64,000 bases of DNA from Dioscorea cayenensis subsp. rotundata. Its lineage: Eukaryota; Streptophyta; Magnoliopsida; Dioscoreales; Dioscoreaceae. The first letter of the stretch is position 1. Every line of letters starts with the position of its first letter. Below are positions 21,788-49,270 of this stretch, piece by piece. The notes under the pieces are model-generated. The model did not search any database. It saw only the letters and a list, made by a program, of their open reading frames with translations, and was not told where the DNA came from. Position numbers and translations under genes: made by a program. The stretch lies in contig NC_052482.1 of the NCBI RefSeq assembly GCF_009730915.1, positions 248,001 through 312,000 on the forward strand. The letters run 5' to 3'.

Positions 21788-24700
21788 ATGGCGCTGAGGA
21801 GGGCATTGGGGTGGTCGGACGGCGAGCTGATGCGGTCGGATGCGAAGCCGTGCACTAGATTGATGAGGCACACCGCCGGAATCTCTAGCGTCTGGGGCGG
21901 CCTTTCCTTCTGGATCCTCTGTCGCCTTCACTATGGTCTGCTCTTCTTCTTCTTCTTCTTCTCGATTGAATCTCCCATTTATTGTTTTTTGTGTTGTTTC
22001 ATTTCATGCAAAGTTGTTTCTTTTCATATGTTTCTGATTATTTCAAGGTCTTGAAGATGAGAAAAATTCAATCTTTTTTTTTCTCTCTCTGGAGTACAAG
22101 TTAGGTTGAATTTTAGGCTTGGTATTTGCCATTGATGCAAAAACAGATAAGCTAATCAGTGTTTTTTTTGTGTTAGAAGTTCTCATTAAATGTACAATTT
22201 GTGCATTATGTTCTAAGAAAATGCGTCAATTTGCGGCAATGGAGACAAGTGTTCCTATCTATGGGTTCTGTCAAAGCAATACTCTCAAACTTCTTCAGTC
22301 CTGTTCTGCTTAGTTAGTGAATAATCACATCAATGACTTTATTTTTGAAAGATTAGTATGGATTGATTGTCTTGAATTTACATTACAGAGGGATTTCAAG
22401 TCTGTTGAGACTTTGAGAGATGCATATAAATTCTATGAAACTCTAGCTTTGTTTGGTTTTATTAAATTTATTATTGTAGCATAATAGATTTCTATACTAA
22501 TCTTTGAAAAGGAACATGAAACTAGAGAGGGTGGAGGAGTTGTAACTTTGCTGTATTTCCTTCTGACTAAGTATTTCTCTGATTCAAATGAGATCTTGTC
22601 CATGTCAACCCACTGACTTTCTTCCTAAGTTTTTCTAATCATCCTAATGAGATGTTCCCCAATGTTGACCTGATATCTTTCCTCGATCTTTGTTGTGCAA
22701 ACTATGAGCAGAAAAGAATTTTTAGCTGCAGTCAGTGGCTCTATCCTTTTACTCAATCTTTCTATAATTATTTTGCTTCTTGGACCTTGTGGATGTGCAT
22801 GTTCTGTTCATTGAAGCCACTGAAAAGGACACGCAGGCAGTATTGCTTTCTTTAATTTAGTGATGGATTGAGTTTTAGTTTGAAGCTGTGATTCTAATCT
22901 AGAATTACTTTGAATTATAACTGGGCTTAGAGTATGTCCTCTGATATTCTGCTTCAAAATTTTTTGTAGATGATTTCCATGCACGAGCTAACTGTTAAGC
23001 TGAAAGTAATGACAATGAACAGTGAACAAAACCCAATATGTCCACTGAATAAATTTGCAACTAGTTAAACTCATGACAAAGAACAGTGAACAAAACCCAA
23101 TATGAAACCCTTTCCAACCTGGTACATCATAAATTCCCTTGGTGTATGACTTGGTCAACAATGATCAAGTCAAAACACCAAAGAACATGATTTTAGTATG
23201 TTAGTGGGAGCTCTTGACTTGAAGACCTGTTGCAGAGAACCTGCAGACCAGGGAAGAGAGAAGAAGAAGAGAGAAGAAGAAGAGAAGAGAAAAGAAGATT
23301 CGAGAGAGAAGAAGGATAATTTGGCCAAAGATGTCCTCTCTTTCATTCCTCATTCCACTTATATGCAAATCCTTACAGAATCATAACCGAATTAATGACC
23401 TGGCATTTCATCAAACACGTGATGTGCCAGAACGTTGTGCAGGAATATCACAACCTTCTCAATTAATCTCTCTTTCCTAATTACATCATTCATCAATACT
23501 AAGTAATTAATCATTCCACAAATCCTGTATTCATCCCATCACATAGTCTTCATAAAAGTTGGGTCTCCTTCCATGATTTGGGCGCACACTTCTTCTCACA
23601 ACAGTGCCAAAGATGTCCTCTCTTTCATTCCTCATTCCACTTATATGCAAATCCTTACAGAATCATAACCGAATTAATGACCTTGCATTTCATCAAACAC
23701 GTGATGTGCCGTAACGCTGTGCGGGGAATATCACAACCTTCTCAATTAATCTCTCTTTCCCTAATTACATCATTCATCAATACTAAGTAATTAATCATTC
23801 CACAAATCTCGTATTCATCCCATCACATAGTCTTCATAAAAAGTTGGGTCTCCTTCCATGATTTGGGCGCACACTTCTTCTCACAGCAGATGCCATACCG
23901 TTGATGGAGTCAACCTCCCGTGCATCAATTTCCCTCCCTTTGAATTGTCCTTGTCCTCAAGGGCAAATTCTGGAAAAGTCTTTGTAAAAGCAACCACATC
24001 CTCCCAAGTTGCATCCTCAATAGCCTGATCCTTCCATTGAACTAATATCTCTGCAAACACTTTCCCTCCTTTAATCACCTCCCGATGTTTGAGTATTGAC
24101 TTGGCTCCAATAGTGGATGCTTGATTTATAAATTCTCCGGGTAATCCACCTGTCACCTCGGTGGAGCAGCCTTTTGAAAAGTTTGAGCTTCGACACGTGA
24201 AATACATCATGTATCTTAGCGGAGTCTCGGTAGTTTAAGTCTATAAGCCACCGCACCCACCCTTTCCTGAATTTGAAAAGGCCCAAAGAAAGCGTAGCGA
24301 GAGTTTAAAAGATGATCTTCGCGCCATGATGACTGCCTATATGGGTCAGTAGTTTAAGCCAAACCCAGTCACTGGATTGAATTGAACATCTGTTCTCCTC
24401 GAATTTGCTTGATTACGCATTCGATCTCTGAGCCTATCCGTAGATTCTCGAAGAGAGACCAAAAGTCGGGAGCGATCTTTCGAATCTCATCCACTAGCGC
24501 CACGGATGACGAACCGGCCAGTGATCGACTAGTGAGCGGAGGTGCCCTGCCCAAACACAGCTTCAAAAGGCGACATCTTAATTGCCGAATGCCACGCGGT
24601 ATTGTAGTGCCATTCCGCCCATGGCAAGTATCGAGACCATCTGCGGGGTTATCGCCGACAAAGCTTCGCAAATAGTCCTCCAAGTACCTATTGAGAACCT

Positions 24701-27700
24701 CTGTTTGGCCGTCTGTTTGAGGGTGGTAAGCACTACTGGTGGCGAGCAAAGTGCCTTGAAGGCGGAATAACTCTTGCCAGAATCCTGACATAAACACTGG
24801 ATCTCGGTCGGAGACAATCTGTGCCGGAACCCCGTGTAATTTGATCACGTCTCTAAGCATAATCTCAGCTACCTGAATGGCAGTGAATGAAGACCCCAAT
24901 GCCGAGAAGTGAGCATGCTTGGACAAGCGATCAACTACGACCATTATAGTCGTTTTTCCGTTGGACGGCGGCAGCCCTATGATGAAGTCCATCGATATGG
25001 AGTGCCAAATCTTGCCCGGAATCGGCAATGGTTGAAGCAATCCTTGGGGTGCTCGATTGAATGGCTTGATACTCTGGCAAATGGAGCATTGAGAAACATA
25101 ATCTTGTACCGATCTTCGCAGCGCTGGCCAGAAGAAATTGCTGGCAATACGCGCCAAAGTCCGGCTCACTCCCGCATGTCCCCCTGTAGGAGTTGTGTGG
25201 AATTCTGCCAACAAAAGGGGTTGTAATGCTGAATTTTCTGGAATCCATATTTTCCCTTTAAAGAAGAGCACGCCATCACGAACTGTAAATTCAGTGTGAT
25301 TTCCCGGGTCGTTGGAAACTTCTGTAATCAGTTGTAGTGTCTCAGGATGTGCTTTGTAAGTTGCACGAATCACCTCCCACAAAACTGGTTGTGGTCGCGA
25401 CTCGGCGAACAGGGCACTGCATGATACTCTGTTCAGTCTTGACAAGGCATCCGCCGGGCCGTTGAGCACACCGGGTTTATACTCTATATCAAAGTCATAC
25501 CCAACCAATTTGTAGAGCCACTTCTGTTGCTCTGGCGTTTGAATAGTTTGGTGTAATAAGGCGCGAAGACTTTGATGATCAGTTTGAACTGTGAAACGGC
25601 GCCCCAACAAGTACTGGCGCCATTTCTTGACAGCCTCGGTGATTGCCATCATCTCTCGAGCATATGTAGATGCTGCTTGCTGCCGGCCATTGAGCTGTTT
25701 GCTGAAATAAGCCAATGGATGCCCATTTTGTAACAAGACCGCGCCAATTCCCCACACCGAGATCGTCGATCCCGAATCACAAATAGTGCAGAGAAATCGA
25801 GCGGTTAGAGTACCGGGGTTCGCATTAGAGATTCTTGCAAACTCCTGAAGGCTTCAGTGGCTGCGGGCGTCCAAACGAAGGCGTCTTTCCGGAGGAGCGA
25901 TGTTAATGGAGCTGCCAATGTAGAATAATGTCGCACAAACCTTCGATAATACCCGCATAAGCCAAGAAAACCTCTTAGAGCCTTAACAGAGTGTGGAATT
26001 GGCCATTCTCTGATTGCTTGGATCTTGTTTGGATCAACAGCTACTCCTTCACCTGAAATTACATGGCCCAAATAACCCACTGAAGTACATCCAAATTCAC
26101 ATTTGGATATCTTTGCAAACAGCGAGTGAGTCCGGAGCGAGTGAGTCCGGAGGCGAGTAAATACATCTTGTAAATGTGACAGATGTGACTCCCAATCTGA
26201 ACTATAAACAAGAATGTCATCGAAGAAAATGAGCACAAATTTACGCAATACTTGCCGGAAAGTAGAGTTCATGAGAGACTGGAATGTCGAGGGTGCATTG
26301 GAGAGGCCGAACGGCATCACGAGAAATTCATAATGCCCTTCGTGTGTCTGAATGCCGTCTTCTCGATGTCACTGGGTGAATTCTAACTTTGGTGATAGCC
26401 AGCGAAGATCTAGCTCGAAAAAGACTCGGGCGCCCGACCCGATTCAGTCGAAACGACTCCTCAGCTGTTGGGATCGGGGAACCCGGTCCCTTCACCGTGA
26501 CGGCATTCAAGGCTCGGTAGTCCACACAAAACCTCCAAGTGCCATCTTTCTTCTTCACTAGAAGTCTTTGGAGAAGAAAAAAAGGGCTCGTACTCGCCAA
26601 TTATGCCCTCCACGAGCATCTACGCCCACCAATTTCTCAATCTCCGACTTCTGGAAATGAGGGTAACGGTAGGGTCGGACGTTCACCGGTGCAGCACCTG
26701 GAATCAATGGAATTCTATGGTCTTGAATTCGCACTGGTGGTAACCCTGACGGGGTTTTGAAGATGTCTTCATACTGGGAGAGTAACTCTGATATTCTGTT
26801 GGAGAAGATGACTGGTGCTGCGGGTCCAATTGAAGGATTTGGACTCAAACAAACTGATTCGACCTTGAGGTGATAAAATTGAGCTCCCCCCGCACCCGAC
26901 CTACGAATTGAAGTTGGTCGTGCTCCATTATATTGAGATTGGTTCAGCCCGTGGAGTCTGATCCTTTTACTCTCATATGTAAACTCCATCCAAAGTGCAC
27001 CATAATCAAATAAAACCGGACCCAATTGCCTCATCCATTGAACTCCTAAGACCACATCCGCACCGTAGATTGGCAACAAGAGCAAATCAACGGGGAAGAT
27101 TACGTCTCCCAGCTTAAGCTTGACTGCTGAGCACTCCCCTCCACAAGAGAGCGCGTCGCCATTGCCGACGGTGACTCGCATGTGGGTTGACGGCTGCACG
27201 GTCAAATTTAGATGTGCGGCCAGACGCGACTGAATAAAATTATTAGTCGAGCCCCCATCCACGAGTACGATCACCTCTTGACCGTTAATGGTGCCGGCGA
27301 GCTTCAAGGTCGACGGAACCATCCTTCCCATCAGAGCATGGAAGGATATGCAAGGATCATCCAAAGAAGGTGTGGTCGTTGGAGACGCTTCCTCTAACAA
27401 CGGAAAGGTCACCGGTGGCGGTTCCTCCTCTGGCGGTATCACCTCATCCCCGATCCACCATTAAGCGGAGGAAAAGAGCGGGCTTGCATTTGTGACCGGT
27501 GTAAACTTGGAGTCGCAATTGAAGCAAAGGCCCCTTCTCTCGTCGAGCAGACCATCTCGGTTGGAGTGAGTCGCTGATTGGTAATGAGGCCCGGCTCGGG
27601 ATTCGTTGAGGCGCAATCGGCGCTATCGATCGAGGAAAAGGTGATCGAGTGAAGGTGGATCGCTCAGCCAGGATTTTATCTTCAACAAGCTTAGCCATCC

Positions 27701-29314
27701 CCACCGCGTCATGAAGGTTGTCGGGTTTCGTAATATATAGCTCCCTTTGGATCTCCTCTTTCAACCCCCGAAAGGAAACAATTCAACAAGCTCTGTTGGC
27801 TTAATCCCGTCACTCGAGTAGACAAGCACTCGAAAATCTCGGAGGAATGCCGTGACCGTGGTCGATTGCTTCGACTTGAATAGAGAGGCCTCATGGTTGA
27901 CAAAAGAGGACGGCCCAAAACGTAATTCAAGCTTCCGGACGAACTCATCCCAATTGGTGAGTTGATCTGTCGAGTGGAGCCATCGAAACCATCGCCTCGC
28001 GGACCGATCATATAAAACGCAGCAATGGCAAGGCGTTGATCGGCTGGAATTTGGTTGAAAAGGAAGTAATGATTCATTTGAAACAACCAACCTAGCACAT
28101 CGGGCTCGCCGGCAAACAGGGGAACTTCAATCTTAGGTGTACGGGGAGGTGCATTAGAGGAATTGGAGTGGAGTGATGGAGGAGATAGTACTGAAGAGTG
28201 GTGAATGGAAGTATGAGAACTGGGCGATGGAAGTGGAAGTAATGGTGGCTGAGGGGATGAAAATTGTGCAGTCGATGGAGATGCTACTTTGTCAAGGTGC
28301 TGCAGCTTCACCATCATGTCTGTCATGACCGCCTGCTGCGCAGCGAGGGAGTTGCTGAAGGAAATCAAATGATTCGGAATGACTCTTCCGCAGCAGATCG
28401 AATGATTCAGCATGGAGTTGGACTGTAGAACGTAGAGAGTCTATCTTCGCGAACACGAGTCATGGCGAGCGAGCTGATCGGCCAGTGAGGATAGTTGCTC
28501 GTCGATCGCGGCGTGCGCGTGTCACCATGCCGTCGGTCATGGATTCAATGAAAGCACCAAATTGTTGCAGAGAACCTGCAGACCAGGGAAGAGAGAAGAA
28601 GAAGAGAGAAGAAGAAGAGAAGAGAAAAGAAGATTCGAGAGAGAAGAAGGATAATTTGGCCAAAGATGTCCTCTCTTTCATTCCTCATTCCACTTATATG
28701 CAAATCCTTACAGAATCATAACCGAATTAATGACCTGGCATTTCATCAAACACGTGATGTGCCAGAACGTTGTGCAGGAATATCACAACCTTCTCAATTA
28801 ATCTCTCTTTCCTAATTACATCATTCATCAATACTAAGTAATTAATCATTCCACAAATCCTGTATTCATCCCATCACATAGTCTTCATAAAAGTTGGGTC
28901 TCCTTCCATGATTTGGGCGCACACTTCTTCTCACAACAGTGCCATACCTGTTGATGGAGTCAACCTCCTGTGCATCAAGACCAGTCAGTCCTTTTCCCTG
29001 CAACGTCTAAATGCCAAGGATCTTTAGCTTTGGTACAAGTTGAAGCTTCCGATTTTGAACACGTTAAATTGATTTCTTTTGTTTTCCTTTTGAAAAATCA
29101 TGAACAACCAGCTCTTGCTTATTATTTCACTACAGCTATCAGCTCGGATATCTAATCTCCTTCAAATGCAGGTCCAAGGATAACAATTCCAAGGAGTCTC
29201 AGGTGGGCATCTTGTGGTGCAATATCAATGAGCTCTACTGCTGCTCTGCTAGTCCGTCTTTTCAGTCCAGAGTGTGAGCCCCAGAACATAGCTGCTTATG
29301 ATCTTCGCAAATGA
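21788..29314 (+). CDS. small conserved two-transmembrane protein, intron enlarged by a retrotransposon
   Basis: Two exons, 21788-21935 and 29172-29314, join in frame across a 7.2-kb intron to give 96 residues. Exon 1 encodes MALRRALGWSDGELMR... and a first hydrophobic helix (about 30-47, ending FWILCRLHYG). Exon 2 continues with PRITIPRSLRWASCG, a second helix (about 61-79), and ends EPQNIAAYDLRK. The split falls inside a glycine codon. The layout (two helices, a PC-R motif before helix 1) vaguely recalls the cytochrome oxidase assembly factor COX20/FAM36A, but I do not firmly recognise it. The donor GTCTGC is weak. The intron holds a whole gypsy element in antisense orientation, yet both exons look intact, so the gene may still be expressed. 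It converges with the DGAT3-like gene about 400 bases downstream. Confidence 0.75.
23228..23927 (-). repeat. left long terminal repeat (3' LTR of the gypsy element), with internal duplication
   Basis: The first 378 bases match the right LTR without any difference I can see. A second, slightly diverged copy of about 280 bases then follows (23606-23888), before the shared terminal stretch ending GTGCATCA. This LTR is therefore about 700 bp against about 415 bp for its partner. Confidence 0.85.
28563..28977 (-). repeat. right long terminal repeat (5' LTR of the gypsy element)
   Basis: About 415 bp, bounded by TGTTGCAG and GTGCATCA on the plus strand. It is followed directly by the AGACC target duplication. 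On its inner side the minus strand reads TTTGGTGCTTTCATTGA, where the primer-binding site is expected. Confidence 0.88.
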
Positions 29315-42114: not shown

Positions 42115-42305
42115 TTAAAAAAATTACAAAATAAAAAAAAAATCTTTCAATATCCCACTCAAACTCAAACTCAAACTTAAATAAATAAATAAATAAATCT
42201 TAAAAATATACTATAATTAAATAAATACCAGTGTCTATATATATATATATATATAAACTCCAAAATCGAAACATATATCGATCTCTTCTCGAAGACAATC
42301 AATCA
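40910..42305. other. AT-rich spacer
   Basis: The start should be the CIPK 3' UTR. The remainder is AT-rich with several TA and poly-A/T tracts and no gene. Near 42240-42300 lies the likely leader of the next small gene. Confidence 0.6.
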
Positions 42306-42668
42306 ATGGCGAGCATTAGCTTTAGATTCAAAGACGGCGAGCCAACCCTAGAGCTCCGGCGATCGTCGAACGAGCAATGGACGGAGCACAGGTACACTGA
42401 CGAGGATTGGATCGTCACCGATTGGCGGACGTTGCCGGGGATGGATCGGATGGTTTTTGTGACGACGAGTCATGAGAAAGTCGGCGTGGTGGAGCTGATG
42501 CCGGAGGTGAAGGCTACGGTGCTGGAGGCTGACGTCTGTGATGATCCTTACACTGGTGTTACAGTGTACTTCGCCGATGTCTACGATGATGTTGAGAATG
42601 AGATCGCCGGCGTCGTCTTCTCCGTTGAACGTGATCAGAGGATTGTGAAGCTTGAACGCATGTTTTGA
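42306..42668 (+). CDS. hypothetical 120-residue acidic protein
   Basis: A single uninterrupted frame from the ATG at 42306 to the TGA at 42666-42668. I do not recognise the family. The product is rich in Glu and Asp, has no signal peptide or membrane helix, and contains WTEHRYTDEDWIVTDW, DRMVFVTTSHEKVGVVELM and a C-terminal VVFSVERDQRIVKLERMF. Alternating charged and hydrophobic residues suggest a small beta-rich domain. The frame is clearly richer in G+C than its flanks, with third positions biased to G and C, which argues that it is real. An alternative is a remnant exon of a larger gene, but no neighbour exon is seen. Confidence 0.6.
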   Translation: MASISFRFKDGEPTLELRRSSNEQWTEHRYTDEDWIVTDWRTLPGMDRMVFVTTSHEKVGVVELMPEVKATVLEADVCDDPYTGVTVYFADVYDDVENEIAGVVFSVERDQRIVKLERMF

Positions 42669-44400
42669 TGCTTTTATTCCCTAATTTATATATATATATA
42701 GTGTGTGTTTCTTGTAGTGCAAGTAGGGTTTTTATTTATAGAAAACCCCCTCGAATTTATAGTATTTTAAGGATTGTCTTTGTTTATATATATACATATA
42801 TATGGTTTGTTAATTTTGTTGTGAAGTGTTGTGGTATAATTAATGAGAATTTTATGTATTAATGAAGTACTGTGTTATGTTTTTGGTTTGGTAATTTGAT
42901 GGATGTGTACTTGAGATTGAAAGGTCTCGAGTTTGAGTTTTTTATATTACAATTCATTTTTTAGATCTTTTGTGAGAATTTTGTGTGAGATTAAATATCT
43001 CTCGTTCTTTCTTCCATGAGTGCATGATGGGGTGTCATCCTTTGGAGATCAGTCAAGCTATCATAATTGGTGTTTCTCCGTATCTATTTGTTTTTTACTT
43101 TATAGTTTATCGACTTTGTAATAAAAAAAATTATAAACAAAAAGGGAGAAGAAAAATATATATGGAGGAGTTTGAAAGAGAAATTATGGATGTTTATTAA
43201 GTTGTTAATGTCTTTAATCGTGATTATTATTATTATTAAAGTAAATTTTTTTAAAAATAAAACTTTTGAGAGATTTGTGGTGTTTATTTTTTCTTATAAA
43301 TAGATATTTGTCAATTCTACTACAAATATTGAGAGAATGATTGGTTATTATTGAGATTTTGAAGCCATGACTTGTCCTAAATTTTTTTTTTATTACAATT
43401 TTGTAATTTATTGAAAATTCTACTACAAATATTGAGAGAATGATTGGCTTATTTATAAATATTATTTATTTATTATTTATTATTTTTATTTTTTTGAGAA
43501 TTATGGGCCAGTCATAAGCAGGGTTAACTTTCGACATTTAGTAGAGAACAGAAAGAAATAACAACGGCTTTATCATAAGGGTGATCGATCTATTATGAAA
43601 ATAATAGTTATGATAAGTTTTGTGATTTTTTTTAAATTTAATTCAAAACTCATAAAATTAATGTGCTAATAAATAGTGATGTTTTAGAAAATAAATACGA
43701 TGATAGGTTTTTGTCGTTTATTTGTTTCAAAACTGATGGAAATAACATTAACGAATACGACAAAAAAAAGTTTGATTATTTAATAATTTATTTTAAATAT
43801 TCATGATCTACGATCTGCTTTATCTTTTATTTATTCCATAATTGATGAAAATAACGTTAACGAATAAGACAAAAAAAAATTTGATCATTTAATGAAAAAT
43901 TTTATTTAAAATAATCATGATCTACAATAAGTTTTGTCATTCTTTTGAAAATTTAATTCTAAATTCTTAAAATTAACTTGTTAATTAATAATGATGTCTA
44001 AGAAAATAAATAAATTCGATAAAAAAAAAATTCAAGCATTTAATAAAAAAATTTATTTAAAATATTTATGATCAAGACAAATTAAAGAATGTACTAAATT
44101 GTCAATTAAATCCAAACCTCATGACCATAAAACCTTATGACTAATTAGAAATAAAAAAAAAATATTAAATTTTTTCATTTCATGATAAAAATAATTCTAA
44201 AGTCCATCAATGATTACCATCTTTGCAATAAAAAAGTCTTAGTATTTTCTTATTATTCCAATGTTAACATTAACTCCAAAGTATTACCAAATTACATATT
44301 CACTATAAATAAAAGAATAAAGCCTTGAAGTGGAGAAGAAGTCCAAACCCATGGGCCCTTTCAAAGCTTGAGAAATCTTCAAACAAGTCTCAGTCTAACA
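42669..44400. other. AT-rich spacer with degenerate tandem repeats
   Basis: After the short 3' UTR of the hypothetical gene the DNA is AT-rich. There are no genes. It includes a 31-base sequence repeated at about 43315 and 43418 (ending ATTGAGAGAATGATTGG), a GGTCTCGAGTTTGAG stretch near 42922 that resembles a tRNA B box, and a degenerate repeat array at 43600-44085. Confidence 0.55.
43600..44085. repeat. degenerate tandem array, unit about 100-130 bp
   Basis: Three to four diverged units share blocks such as AACGAATACGACAAAAAA, TTTGATTATTTAAT, AATATTCATGATCTACRA and ATAAGTTTTGTSATT in the same order. Boundaries are approximate. Confidence 0.55.
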
Positions 44401-44404
44401 AGAA

Positions 44405-44561
44405 AGAGTACAACTTGTTGTACAAATTGTAACAGTACTACAACCTCTCAATCTGATAGTACAACTGATAAGTTTTCAAACAGCAAAACATGAGGTACTG
44501 CAGCAAGAGAGAAGTACCACACTTAATAATCTCTATGCTCTAATAATCCTTTCTATATAAA
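44405..44561 (+). promoter_or_regulatory. MIR408 promoter: six GTAC copper-response cores and a TATA box
   Basis: GTAC occurs six times within 110 bp: 44408-44411, 44420-44423, 44435-44438, 44459-44462, 44495-44498 and 44514-44517. The second is the centre of the palindrome TTGTACAA. A TATA box, TATATAAA, lies at 44554-44561, about 75 bases before the hairpin. GTAC is the core bound by the copper-sensing factor SPL7, which activates MIR408 and other genes under copper shortage. A six-fold cluster is far above what chance gives in such DNA (about one GTAC per 256 bases at even composition, fewer in AT-rich DNA). Confidence 0.8.
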
Positions 44562-44615
44562 CACATAATAATGGGATGGTGTTTTATAGCTGCATTGAAA
44601 TCAAAGTTTTGATGA

Positions 44616-44740
44616 AGAATGAGAAGAGCACAAAGACAGGGATGAGGTTGAGCATGAGATGGATTCATCAACATGAAACATCAAATTTATTAACTGTTGA
44701 TGTTCCTCCCATGCACTGCCTCTTCCCTGGCTCATTCTCT
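44616..44740 (+). ncRNA. MIR408: MIR408 precursor (miR408-5p and miR408-3p)
   Basis: The 3' arm carries the 21-nt mature miR408 at 44711-44731 (ATGCACTGCC...CCCTGGC), identical to the conserved plant form as I recall it. The 5' arm carries the matching star strand at 44636-44656 (ACAGGGATGAGG...GCATG). The two pair with about three mismatches and leave the usual 2-nt 3' overhangs. Pairing extends below the duplex (AGAATGAG with CTCATTCT) and within the loop (CATCAACA with TGTTGATG). miR408 silences mRNAs of copper proteins, chiefly plantacyanin and laccases, to save copper for plastocyanin. The primary transcript probably starts near 44585. A frame crossing this region at 44576-44791 is incidental. 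Confidence 0.95.
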
Positions 44741-45797
44741 TTTCTTTCATCCTTTTACTTGATTTCATTGGTTCCATATTTCCCCCTTTGATGATGATAA
44801 ACAGATATAATTAATTGTCAAAGAGCATAGCAGCAATTCAGAGCATGATTCAATCTGGTTCAATGGATCTTTAATTCTTGGGAAAAAAAAAAAAAATTGT
44901 TGTTTCATGTTCTTAATTATAGTAATGCAGATTGAGTTTTATTGAACTGCTGACTTGGTTTATGACATTCTCTGTTTGCTTTTGTTTTTCTGAACAGGAA
45001 TGGTGATATGGTTGATAAATAAAGAGAAGGAAATTAAAATTGCTGAATAGAGTGAAGTTCATCCTCTTTGTGTTGTGAAATGTAATTGTTTTTTTTTTTT
45101 GGAGAAAATTGTTGAAATATCTCCACATGTATTTGATTGAATTACTTCTTTTGATCTCAGTTATCAATGATTTAATTATAAATAATTATATATATATATA
45201 TATATAGTCTCTGTTTTCAAAGTTTTAGGGGGTGTTTGGTTAGTGAGCAATCACCAACTAACATGAAGTTATACCACCAGCTCTTATAAAAAATTAATTA
45301 ATTATTTAACTGTATTATTTATCAAATATTTTTTTTAAAAAAAGATATAATATTAATATATGCTTATATTTACTAAAGAAATTATACTTAAAACTAGCAT
45401 TCACATAAATCAAAAATTTATTTTTAAATTATAAAACTCCAATCAAAATCAAACAAAAAAATAAAATTAAAAAACAACAGACAAATAAAGAAGAAGCACA
45501 ACAACAGTAATTTGCATTAATTGGAGACTCTACCATTGATGTAGATATTCTGAAAGTGGGTGTAAGTCAAACTTATACAAAAAAATAAAAATAAAAAAAA
45601 AGGCAATTATTCAGACATTGTTCTCCAGTTACAAGAAAAATGGAGCTAATCTTCTAAGGCCAATAAGAGGCCAACCATTTGATGATCCTGCTGTATCAAG
45701 AAATTGTGATCAAAACTTGGAACAACTTGAATCAAAATTCTCAATTTACTCCATTTCAAGAATGAAATTTCTCTCAAGACTTCAAAAGGGAGATGGC
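44741..45797. other. spacer between MIR408 and the ribosomal protein gene
   Basis: No gene is supported. The left part may belong to the MIR408 primary transcript. The right part (about 45500-45797) is probably the 3' UTR of the uL3m gene on the minus strand. Confidence 0.5.
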
Positions 45798-48687
45798 TTA
45801 ATCAGTCACCATGAAAGGATCAATTTCACCAAGATCAGCAACTAAAGGTTCCAATTCAGATGTTTCCTCACCCTCTGGAATAAAATGCGTCGGAAATGGT
45901 AGCTTCGAACTGTCTGGTTTCGCGTAGACAGCATCCTTGATGAAAACAAAGTTCCCTTCAGCACCTGGAACCTATGAGAAATCACAGAGAAATCAGTTAG
46001 CATGAGAAAACTGTTGTAAGTGTTAAAACTTTTGAAGGTATTGACAGATTTGAGTTAACTTACCTGGCCTTTAACCCACATCAAATTTCTCCCAGGTTCT
46101 ATTTTGTAAACCCAAACATTCTTCACTGTGCATTGCTTCCCACCCATGCGTCCAGGCATTTTCTTGCCTTTAAAAACCTACATATACAAGACATCATAAA
46201 ATCAATGACACCCATTTTCTTCCCTCTAAACAGAAGTGCAATCCTATAAAATATGAGAATACATTCAGAAGGTAGTTAATAAGAAAAAAAGGAGTTTGGT
46301 ACACAAGTTTTCTAATGGACTTATCACATTATCCTATCAAGTAAATCAATACTTTATCATCAGAATATTCCATAAACCCACAAATTATACATATAGGAAT
46401 GAAATATAGATAATTACTAGGCAGATTTTTTCAAGTAAATACATATCAAAAGATCGCTTAAGATGATGAAGCACTAGTCTAATAAAAACATGTAAATGCT
46501 AAAGACTGAAACAAACCAATCAGAAAGTTTTTTTTTAAACTGGTAGCTTATATGAATTAAAAATCATAGCCCGCCCACAATTTATATCAAGCCTGGTCAC
46601 TAAGAAATAACTAGCAAACTATATTAGTGAAAGGAAATGCAACAATAAAACTGTTAAACTGGACAGGGCTCTGATGTACCCTTCCAGGAGCATCTCTTTG
46701 CCCAGTGGAGCCTATACTTCGATGTGATAGTGATGCACCATGTGATGCAGGCATTCCAGAAAACCCCCACCTCTTCATTCCACCCTATAAAAAGCAAACA
46801 CATATCGTATGAAATATGCACTGGAGGTTTATAGTGTCTGAGAGCAAATAAAAAAGCATGTCAAACATCATAAGAAGTCAAACAATACACGAAATTAGAA
46901 GTTCAAACTTGATGGGGGAAGGCAATATCAGATGACACATCAGCTACACTGTGAGATGAAGGGGTAATAATAGAGGAACAAAAATTAGTTTTCACTCAAA
47001 GCTTCAAAAAGAATGATAAGTTGCTGAATGAACACCAAGTTAGTGTGATTTAAATTCTCTTCATAAGTTGTATTTCACAAAAAAAAACTACAAACTAGCA
47101 TTTGAAAATTAACTCACCAAGCATGCTAACATTTTGTCTGAATAAATGGAAAAATCAATAGCAAAAATCACATTAAGTTTGCTGGTTTATCATAAAGCAT
47201 TCCAAATGAGGACTCAAATTTGTCCTTAATCACAATTAGAATTTAGACAAGCTGTTCATGTTCTTCATAATTAATTTTGTACTTTCAAATCATCAGTATT
47301 CCAACTCCGTAATATCTAAAACCTGAGATTTAATGTGAATTTGTTTTTAGACTATATTTTTATTGTAATTTGTTCACAAAAATAAAGTAACAAGAATAAG
47401 TAGATCACTGTAGTTCCTTTCTCAACACTCTATTCAAAAACAAAGAAAGAATAACTTAAAAAGAATCCTAATTATGTAAATGCAATGCATAATTGGGAGT
47501 GGAGCTACCTGAAAACCTTTACCCATTGTGATACCCGTCACATCAACATACTGGCCTGGAATGAAATGGCGAACAGTAATCGGAGTCCCAACTGGAAGAA
47601 GCGCATCTTCAGTCACGGGGAATTCTCTCAACTTCCTCTTCAATGGAACCCCCTGTGCTCTGTAATGACCCACCTCAGGTTTTCTTAAATGCTTCTCCTT
47701 CTTTTGCCCAGCCCCAATCTAACTAACACCACAACAAAATCACAGGTCATAATTACAACTAAAACACATACAACAATTACCTTTCATGAAATTGAAAATA
47801 GTACATCAAATTCCAAATTATATACTCAAAGGCTTTCCATATCAATCAAAGGCAACCATGTCAATCACTTAAACAACTATGACCAACAGTTCTTCAATCA
47901 ATATAATAACAGAAACTAAAACTACATAATCAAATATCCCATTTTGATGTGTCCATACGCACAAGTATATTTCTACAAGAACAAAAAGATCAAAGTTCTT
48001 GAGCGGCTAAATAAAGGAGACACGCATGAATCACCAATACTCCATAGCAAACAGATAATAATTAGGAAAAAAAAAGGTGAATTTTTGTGAGAGTCTTAAA
48101 TATTATGACATGATTCAATCAGCAAGGTGATCAAAGAAAACCATTTAATCATAATTCTGGTTCTACAATAATAAAATACCCATACAGTATACAACAAATG
48201 AGGCATTCAAATTTTTAAAATATTAGAAAAGCTTTCAAATTTTTTGTTTTCCCGAAATAAAACGTTAATGATCTAAAGATCCAGAGAAGCACAAGACCGA
48301 GGCAGCTCCAAAGAAGAATGGAACACTGCAATCTGATAAAAAAGAAAGCTTTCATACCTGCAAGGCGGTGGTACAGTCCTTGTCGGGGGTCTTCACCTGG
48401 CATACAACATTATCATCGATCCACAACACTGTGATTGGAATCCTAGCACCCCACTTGTCCCAAAGCGCCGTCATTCCACACTTGATCCCGATCACCCCAG
48501 TCCTCTTAGAATCCGGCCGCATAACTCTAGGTTTCGCCTCTATTATCCTTCCCCCAAAAGAGCCCTCGACCTCATCATCTCCTCCAGCGAGTAATGTCTC
48601 CGCGCTAAACCATCGGCTGAAGAGCGCCGGCGAGGGTTTGGCGGAGAGGGAGAGGCGAAAGAGGAGGCCTCTCGACGCGGCTGACAT
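45798..48687 (-). CDS. mitochondrial large-subunit ribosomal protein uL3 (L3)
   Basis: Five exons, read leftward (48687-48358, 47718-47509, 46784-46680, 46177-46064, 45971-45798), give 310 residues. The N-terminus ([19 protein letters not shown]...) is rich in Arg and Ser without acids, as in mitochondrial presequences. The uL3 core follows with [77 protein letters not shown] and [20 protein letters not shown]. The C-terminal extension ends [17 protein letters not shown], which I associate with the mitochondrial rather than the plastid or cytosolic form. The product binds 23S-type rRNA near the peptidyl-transferase centre. The start chosen is the first ATG in the frame. The gene is head-to-head with the Cys-rich protein gene. 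Confidence 0.93.
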
Positions 48688-49270
48688 GGAGATCAACACG
48701 ACGGGGCGGAGGGGTTCAGATGGAGTGCATAGTGATGGAGATGGTTGTGGGTGGGGAGTGGAAGGGAGAGGTCGAGAGATCGGCGGCGATGGAGAAGGGT
48801 TTTAGAGACGAAGAATGAAAAGCTCGGCGACGGCGCGGAATGTAGGGTTTTAGCGGCCTTCGAGCATTCCATGAATATTTACTAAACTGCCACTGAGTTT
48901 TACTGGGCCGGGCCTTGTATATAATTAGTTTATAAAAAAGAATTAAAATAAAATTTTAAAAAAAAATCATAAAATATTTACTTGAAATTTTATCTAATTA
49001 TGATTGGTATAATAAAGATATAATAAATAAATAAAAGAGAAAATTTTGCTGAGATATACACATATTTATCAAATCTGAATTTGTACTAGTTTTTTAAATA
49101 AAAAATAAAAAAATAAAAACGCTCAACTCTGTTTTGATTCTTTGTTGTTTTTTCTTTTGTTTTTATCTGTTGGTTATTGGTATATATTTATTTTGTTTAA
49201 TATATATGGTTTATTTATTTTTTTTTAAAAATTAAATAAGTTATTTATTTAAAAGAAACTTTACAAATTT

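Follow-up and report, generated by a model that had tools for sequence, protein, structure and literature searches.

MicroRNA miR408 is an ancient and well-known small RNA of plants, which turns down dispensable copper proteins. Its published targets comprise plantacyanin, uclacyanin, laccase and others, as given in the available part of the source (PMC8745667). Regulation involves the SBP/SPL factors, which recognise a GTAC core, and under copper shortage SPL7 induces both miR398 and miR408 (PMC8430956, partial text). The rice gene is among the closest described systems: it is a single locus with a GTAC-rich proximal promoter, in which GTAC motifs are enriched near the hairpin, and IPA1/SPL14 binds this promoter and activates it (PMC10958043, partial text). 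The two rice strands are CAGGGAUGAGGCAGAGCAUGG (miR408-5p) and CUGCACUGCCUCUUCCCUGGC (miR408-3p), according to the accessible portion of PMC3161970.

The locus described here lies in a 64-kb stretch of DNA, which we call the window. We conclude with high confidence that it is a MIR408 gene of a flowering plant and, like the rice gene, it is a single locus as far as our search reached, with a GTAC-rich proximal promoter.

The hairpin, its duplex and its surroundings

The sequence ATGCACTGCCTCTTCCCTGGC, which is miR408-3p, occupies positions 44711-44731 of the + strand, and ACAGGGATGAGGTTGAGCATG is found on the same strand at 44636-44656; the original prediction had placed the mature strand and its star at precisely these positions. 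A single foldback holds both 21-nt strands, which face each other on opposite arms, as had also been proposed. When the region 44600-44760 was folded, a stable hairpin was obtained, with an energy of -58.5 kcal/mol compared with a mean of -34.69 (sd 3.74) in shuffled sequences (z -6.37), and none of the 200 shuffles was as stable. In the minimum-energy fold, the duplex leaves unpaired 4 of the first 19 bases of the 5p strand and 3 of the first 19 of the 3p strand. According to the dot-bracket, the main stem-loop of the primary transcript would extend over 44611-44751 (+), and this main stem exceeds the interval 44616-44740 that had been predicted for the gene.

The assignment to the family was supported by the curated Rfam model RF00690 (MIR408), which matches positions 44617-44749 of the + strand, taken as the MIR408 precursor, with 83.1 bits (E 7.6e-20) against a gathering cut-off of 64 bits and over model positions 1-126 of 126. 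This match, together with the sequence, the fold and the promoter and target context presented below, bears out the MIR408 identity first proposed. No Rfam family other than MIR408 reached the gathering level in the 64-kb window, and between 41000 and 48000 MIR408 was the sole RNA family matched at E values up to 1. An antisense hairpin was rejected: the Rfam match on the minus strand at this place reaches 54.8 bits, short of the 64-bit cut-off, and mirrors the + stem. The locus is like the RF00690 family in its arms, in its 3p sequence and in the full length of the match; it differs from the model in a 7-nt insertion in the loop region and in a 5p arm of its own. With respect to rice, the accessible sequences show identity at 18 of 21 positions of the 5p strand (counted in the 44637-44657 register, with differences at positions 12, 13 and 21) and at 20 of 21 positions of the 3p strand, which here begins with A instead of C. 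In a literature search, no paper was found for the 5p strand of the window or for longer stretches of the precursor, and a sequence scan of viral_contigs gave no match to the 3p 21-mer.

Regarding the ends of the duplex, the 2-nt overhangs claimed for the coordinates 44636-44656 and 44711-44731 were off by one. The minimum-energy fold pairs 44655 with 44711 and 44637 with 44729, so that the overhangs are of 1 nt; 44636 is unpaired opposite 44730, and in the Rfam alignment, read by eye, A44636 likewise stands opposite G44730. Overhangs of 2 nt arise at both ends if the 5p strand is taken as 44637-44657 (+), which is also the register of rice miR408-5p in the available text; an alternative route to the same geometry is a 3p strand at 44712-44732.

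The position of the gene in a gap between protein genes held up, the gap being of several kilobases as far as the limited Pfam annotation shows. To the left of MIR408, kinase pieces were found at 37.6-39.3 kb, a pseudouridine-synthase piece at 32.8-33.2 kb, a rubredoxin frame at 11.0-11.8 kb and a WRKY piece at 7.9-8.6 kb, while on the other side an NYN/DUF7625 frame lies at 57.2-59.9 kb on the minus strand. Pfam gave no match for 4 of the 10 frames submitted, including the two nearest to MIR408 (42225-42668 and 48352-48801). The second of these, on the minus strand, looks by eye like the start of an organelle ribosomal protein L3, with no Pfam match at 0.001; by eye as well, the broken frames at 24369-28440 (-) resemble a plant LTR-retrotransposon polyprotein. 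The gene had been described as hidden, and this is true of an annotation based on proteins only, which would miss it, but a standard Rfam scan finds it at once.

A GTAC cluster and a TATA-box-like element upstream of the hairpin

Six GTAC motifs, which are candidate copper-response or SPL-binding elements and to which no strand is assigned, were located at 44408, 44420, 44435, 44459, 44495 and 44514, that is, within 110 bp (44408-44517). In dinucleotide shuffles of 44300-44580, six GTAC were reached in none of 5000 copies (mean 0.94). When the whole window was shuffled 300 times, the six-motif cluster did not appear either, and the densest cluster of the same span contained two motifs in 80 copies, three in 205, four in 14 and five in only one. 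Across the entire window the tetranucleotide occurs somewhat more often than chance predicts (138 occurrences, 111.4 expected), and this excess does not explain the cluster. Just below the motifs, the sequence CTATATAAA at 44553-44561 (+) resembles a TATA box and would act as part of the promoter. Transcription is expected to start some 25-35 bases downstream of such an element.

A GTAC-rich proximal promoter, which is a feature of the SPL7/GTAC copper-microRNA regulon, is thus present at this locus, and the factor acting on the cluster is most likely SPL7 under copper shortage. Instead of SPL7, the cluster could serve another member of the SPL group, for example IPA1/SPL14 in its role in growth and auxin signalling; we consider this assignment unlikely, though it deserves some weight. 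The GTAC core does not discriminate among SPL factors (PMC8430956, partial text), and the rice MIR408 promoter is bound and activated by IPA1 (PMC10958043, partial text); against this, the accessible part of PMC8430956 reports, as the general mode for miR408, that SPL7 induces it when copper is short. Furthermore, SPL7 and another SPL factor may act together.

Complementary sites in phytocyanin genes and copy number

The plastocyanin-like family PF02298 has 43 matches in the genome, 30 of which were read in gene orientation together with flanks of about 1.5 kb, as far as the contig extended, and searched using our own psRNATarget-like score, in which lower values mean a better complement. Three of these 30 phytocyanin loci carry a complement to miR408-3p scoring 5 or better: L018 (2.5), L025 (4.5) and L013 (5.0). 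In a control with shuffled versions of the microRNA, none of 1000 gave three sites at this level (mean 0.004, maximum 1). Weaker sites were observed in L011 and L012 (both 6.5) and in L010 (7.0), the shuffle control having been made at 5. The sites of L011 and L012 fall within the conserved copper domain, and we do not claim them as targets; the score of L010 is worse than theirs.

The site of L013 corresponds to codons 2-9 of a plantacyanin-like protein that starts with MAMGRGSAK. In Arabidopsis, too, the miR408 site of plantacyanin is at the start of the protein. In the uclacyanin-like genes L018, L025 and L010, the last of them with the weak score mentioned, the complement lies on the stop codon or just past it. 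In L018 and L010, the site contains the TAG that terminates the uclacyanin-like frame. In L025, the frame that carries the copper domain stops at base 1875, ahead of the site at 1917, and another frame, with a hydrophobic tail, reaches a TAG in the site; a frameshift or an assembly error is apparent here (G000:C16:22505368-22508544, approximately bases 1850-1940), and the miR408 site is kept. Among the three genes, agreement within the 21-base site amounts to 20, 15 and 16 positions, compared with 4-13 of 21 in five ungapped flanking blocks of 21 bases. This greater likeness of the site is what would be expected if its nucleotides had been kept, three genes being few for such a comparison. Judging from these complements, the plantacyanin-like and uclacyanin-like genes are likely targets of miR408.

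Taken by itself, a scan of the whole genome for complements, in which at most 3 mismatches were allowed, is weak evidence for targeting: it gave five places besides the gene, and a reversed control pattern gave one. The five are an uclacyanin-like gene on contig C4 (C4:1135205-1135225), three near-identical copies of a repeat and one place on C816. The repeat copies (L004, L006 and L007, on C1, C6 and C12) are apparently a dispersed repeat with the same 21-base near-complement, with 3 mismatches and a score of 5; being copies of one repeated sequence with such a score, they are not claimed as targets, and neither is L008, whose complement also scores 5. The laccase family has 120 matches in the genome, mostly single exons, and the same scan found no complement with up to 3 mismatches at any listed laccase place.

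The search for further members of the family covered the whole genome (584,211,761 bases in 2249 contigs), and scores were computed for 42 of its 25,350 first-look candidates. Among these 42, no second MIR408 place appeared; only the present + locus and its mirror on the minus strand were recovered, and this locus is the only copy found. It could be argued that this MIR408 locus is a relic, dead or not transcribed, whose hairpin is kept by recent descent, and the 3 of 21 positions at which the 5p arm differs from that of rice would fit this. We regard it as highly improbable, given that the 3p strand is perfect, that the family match is full-length, that a dense GTAC cluster and a TATA box stand in the right place, and that no other MIR408 place was found for the job among the scored candidates, yet the complementary sites are kept.

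The open frame and the proposed working of the gene

As the original prediction had noted, an incidental frame of 71 aa is present in the ORF list at 44576-44791 (+) and runs through the hairpin; a putative short protein-coding gene with an incidental hairpin deserves next to no credence as the main reading and is refuted as such by the curated microRNA family match at the same stretch, the length of the frame being unremarkable, since 68 ATG-started frames of at least 71 aa are found in the window (genes included; mean 12.6 in base-shuffled copies). The ATG at 44576, some 20 bases downstream of the TATA box, probably precedes the start of transcription. Translation from the following in-frame ATG, at 44612, would yield 59 aa in a frame that spans the whole hairpin; of the ATGs in the predicted transcript, this one would come first. 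That the primary transcript of this MIR408 gene could encode, besides the microRNA, a small regulatory peptide of these 59 codons is a very improbable extension. In Arabidopsis, miPEP408 has 35 aa and its frame is upstream of the mature miR408, whereas the frame described here overlaps the mature strand itself (PMC10231350, partial text).

For the MIR408 gene observed here in its sequence, fold, family match, GTAC cluster and complementary sites, we infer transcription, factor identity, processing, cleavage and copper response from the established knowledge of the family. When copper is short, an SPL factor, most likely SPL7, would bind the GTAC elements, and RNA polymerase II would be recruited at the TATA box just below the cluster. 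The transcript would fold into the hairpin, from which Dicer-like 1 would excise the 5p/3p duplex; loaded in Argonaute, the 3p strand would cleave the mRNAs of dispensable copper proteins, here plantacyanin and uclacyanins. This cleavage would spare copper for the essential copper proteins.

The locus is a routine new member of the known MIR408 family and looks like an ordinary, intact gene, of a family and a mechanism already known, whose expression and cleavage activity are presumed from them. What the analysis contributes is that the place, the strand and the probable promoter of a copper-economy microRNA are now fixed in this genome, and its likely targets are named. A small addition to this picture is the conserved complement that three uclacyanin-like genes carry on the stop codon or just past it.
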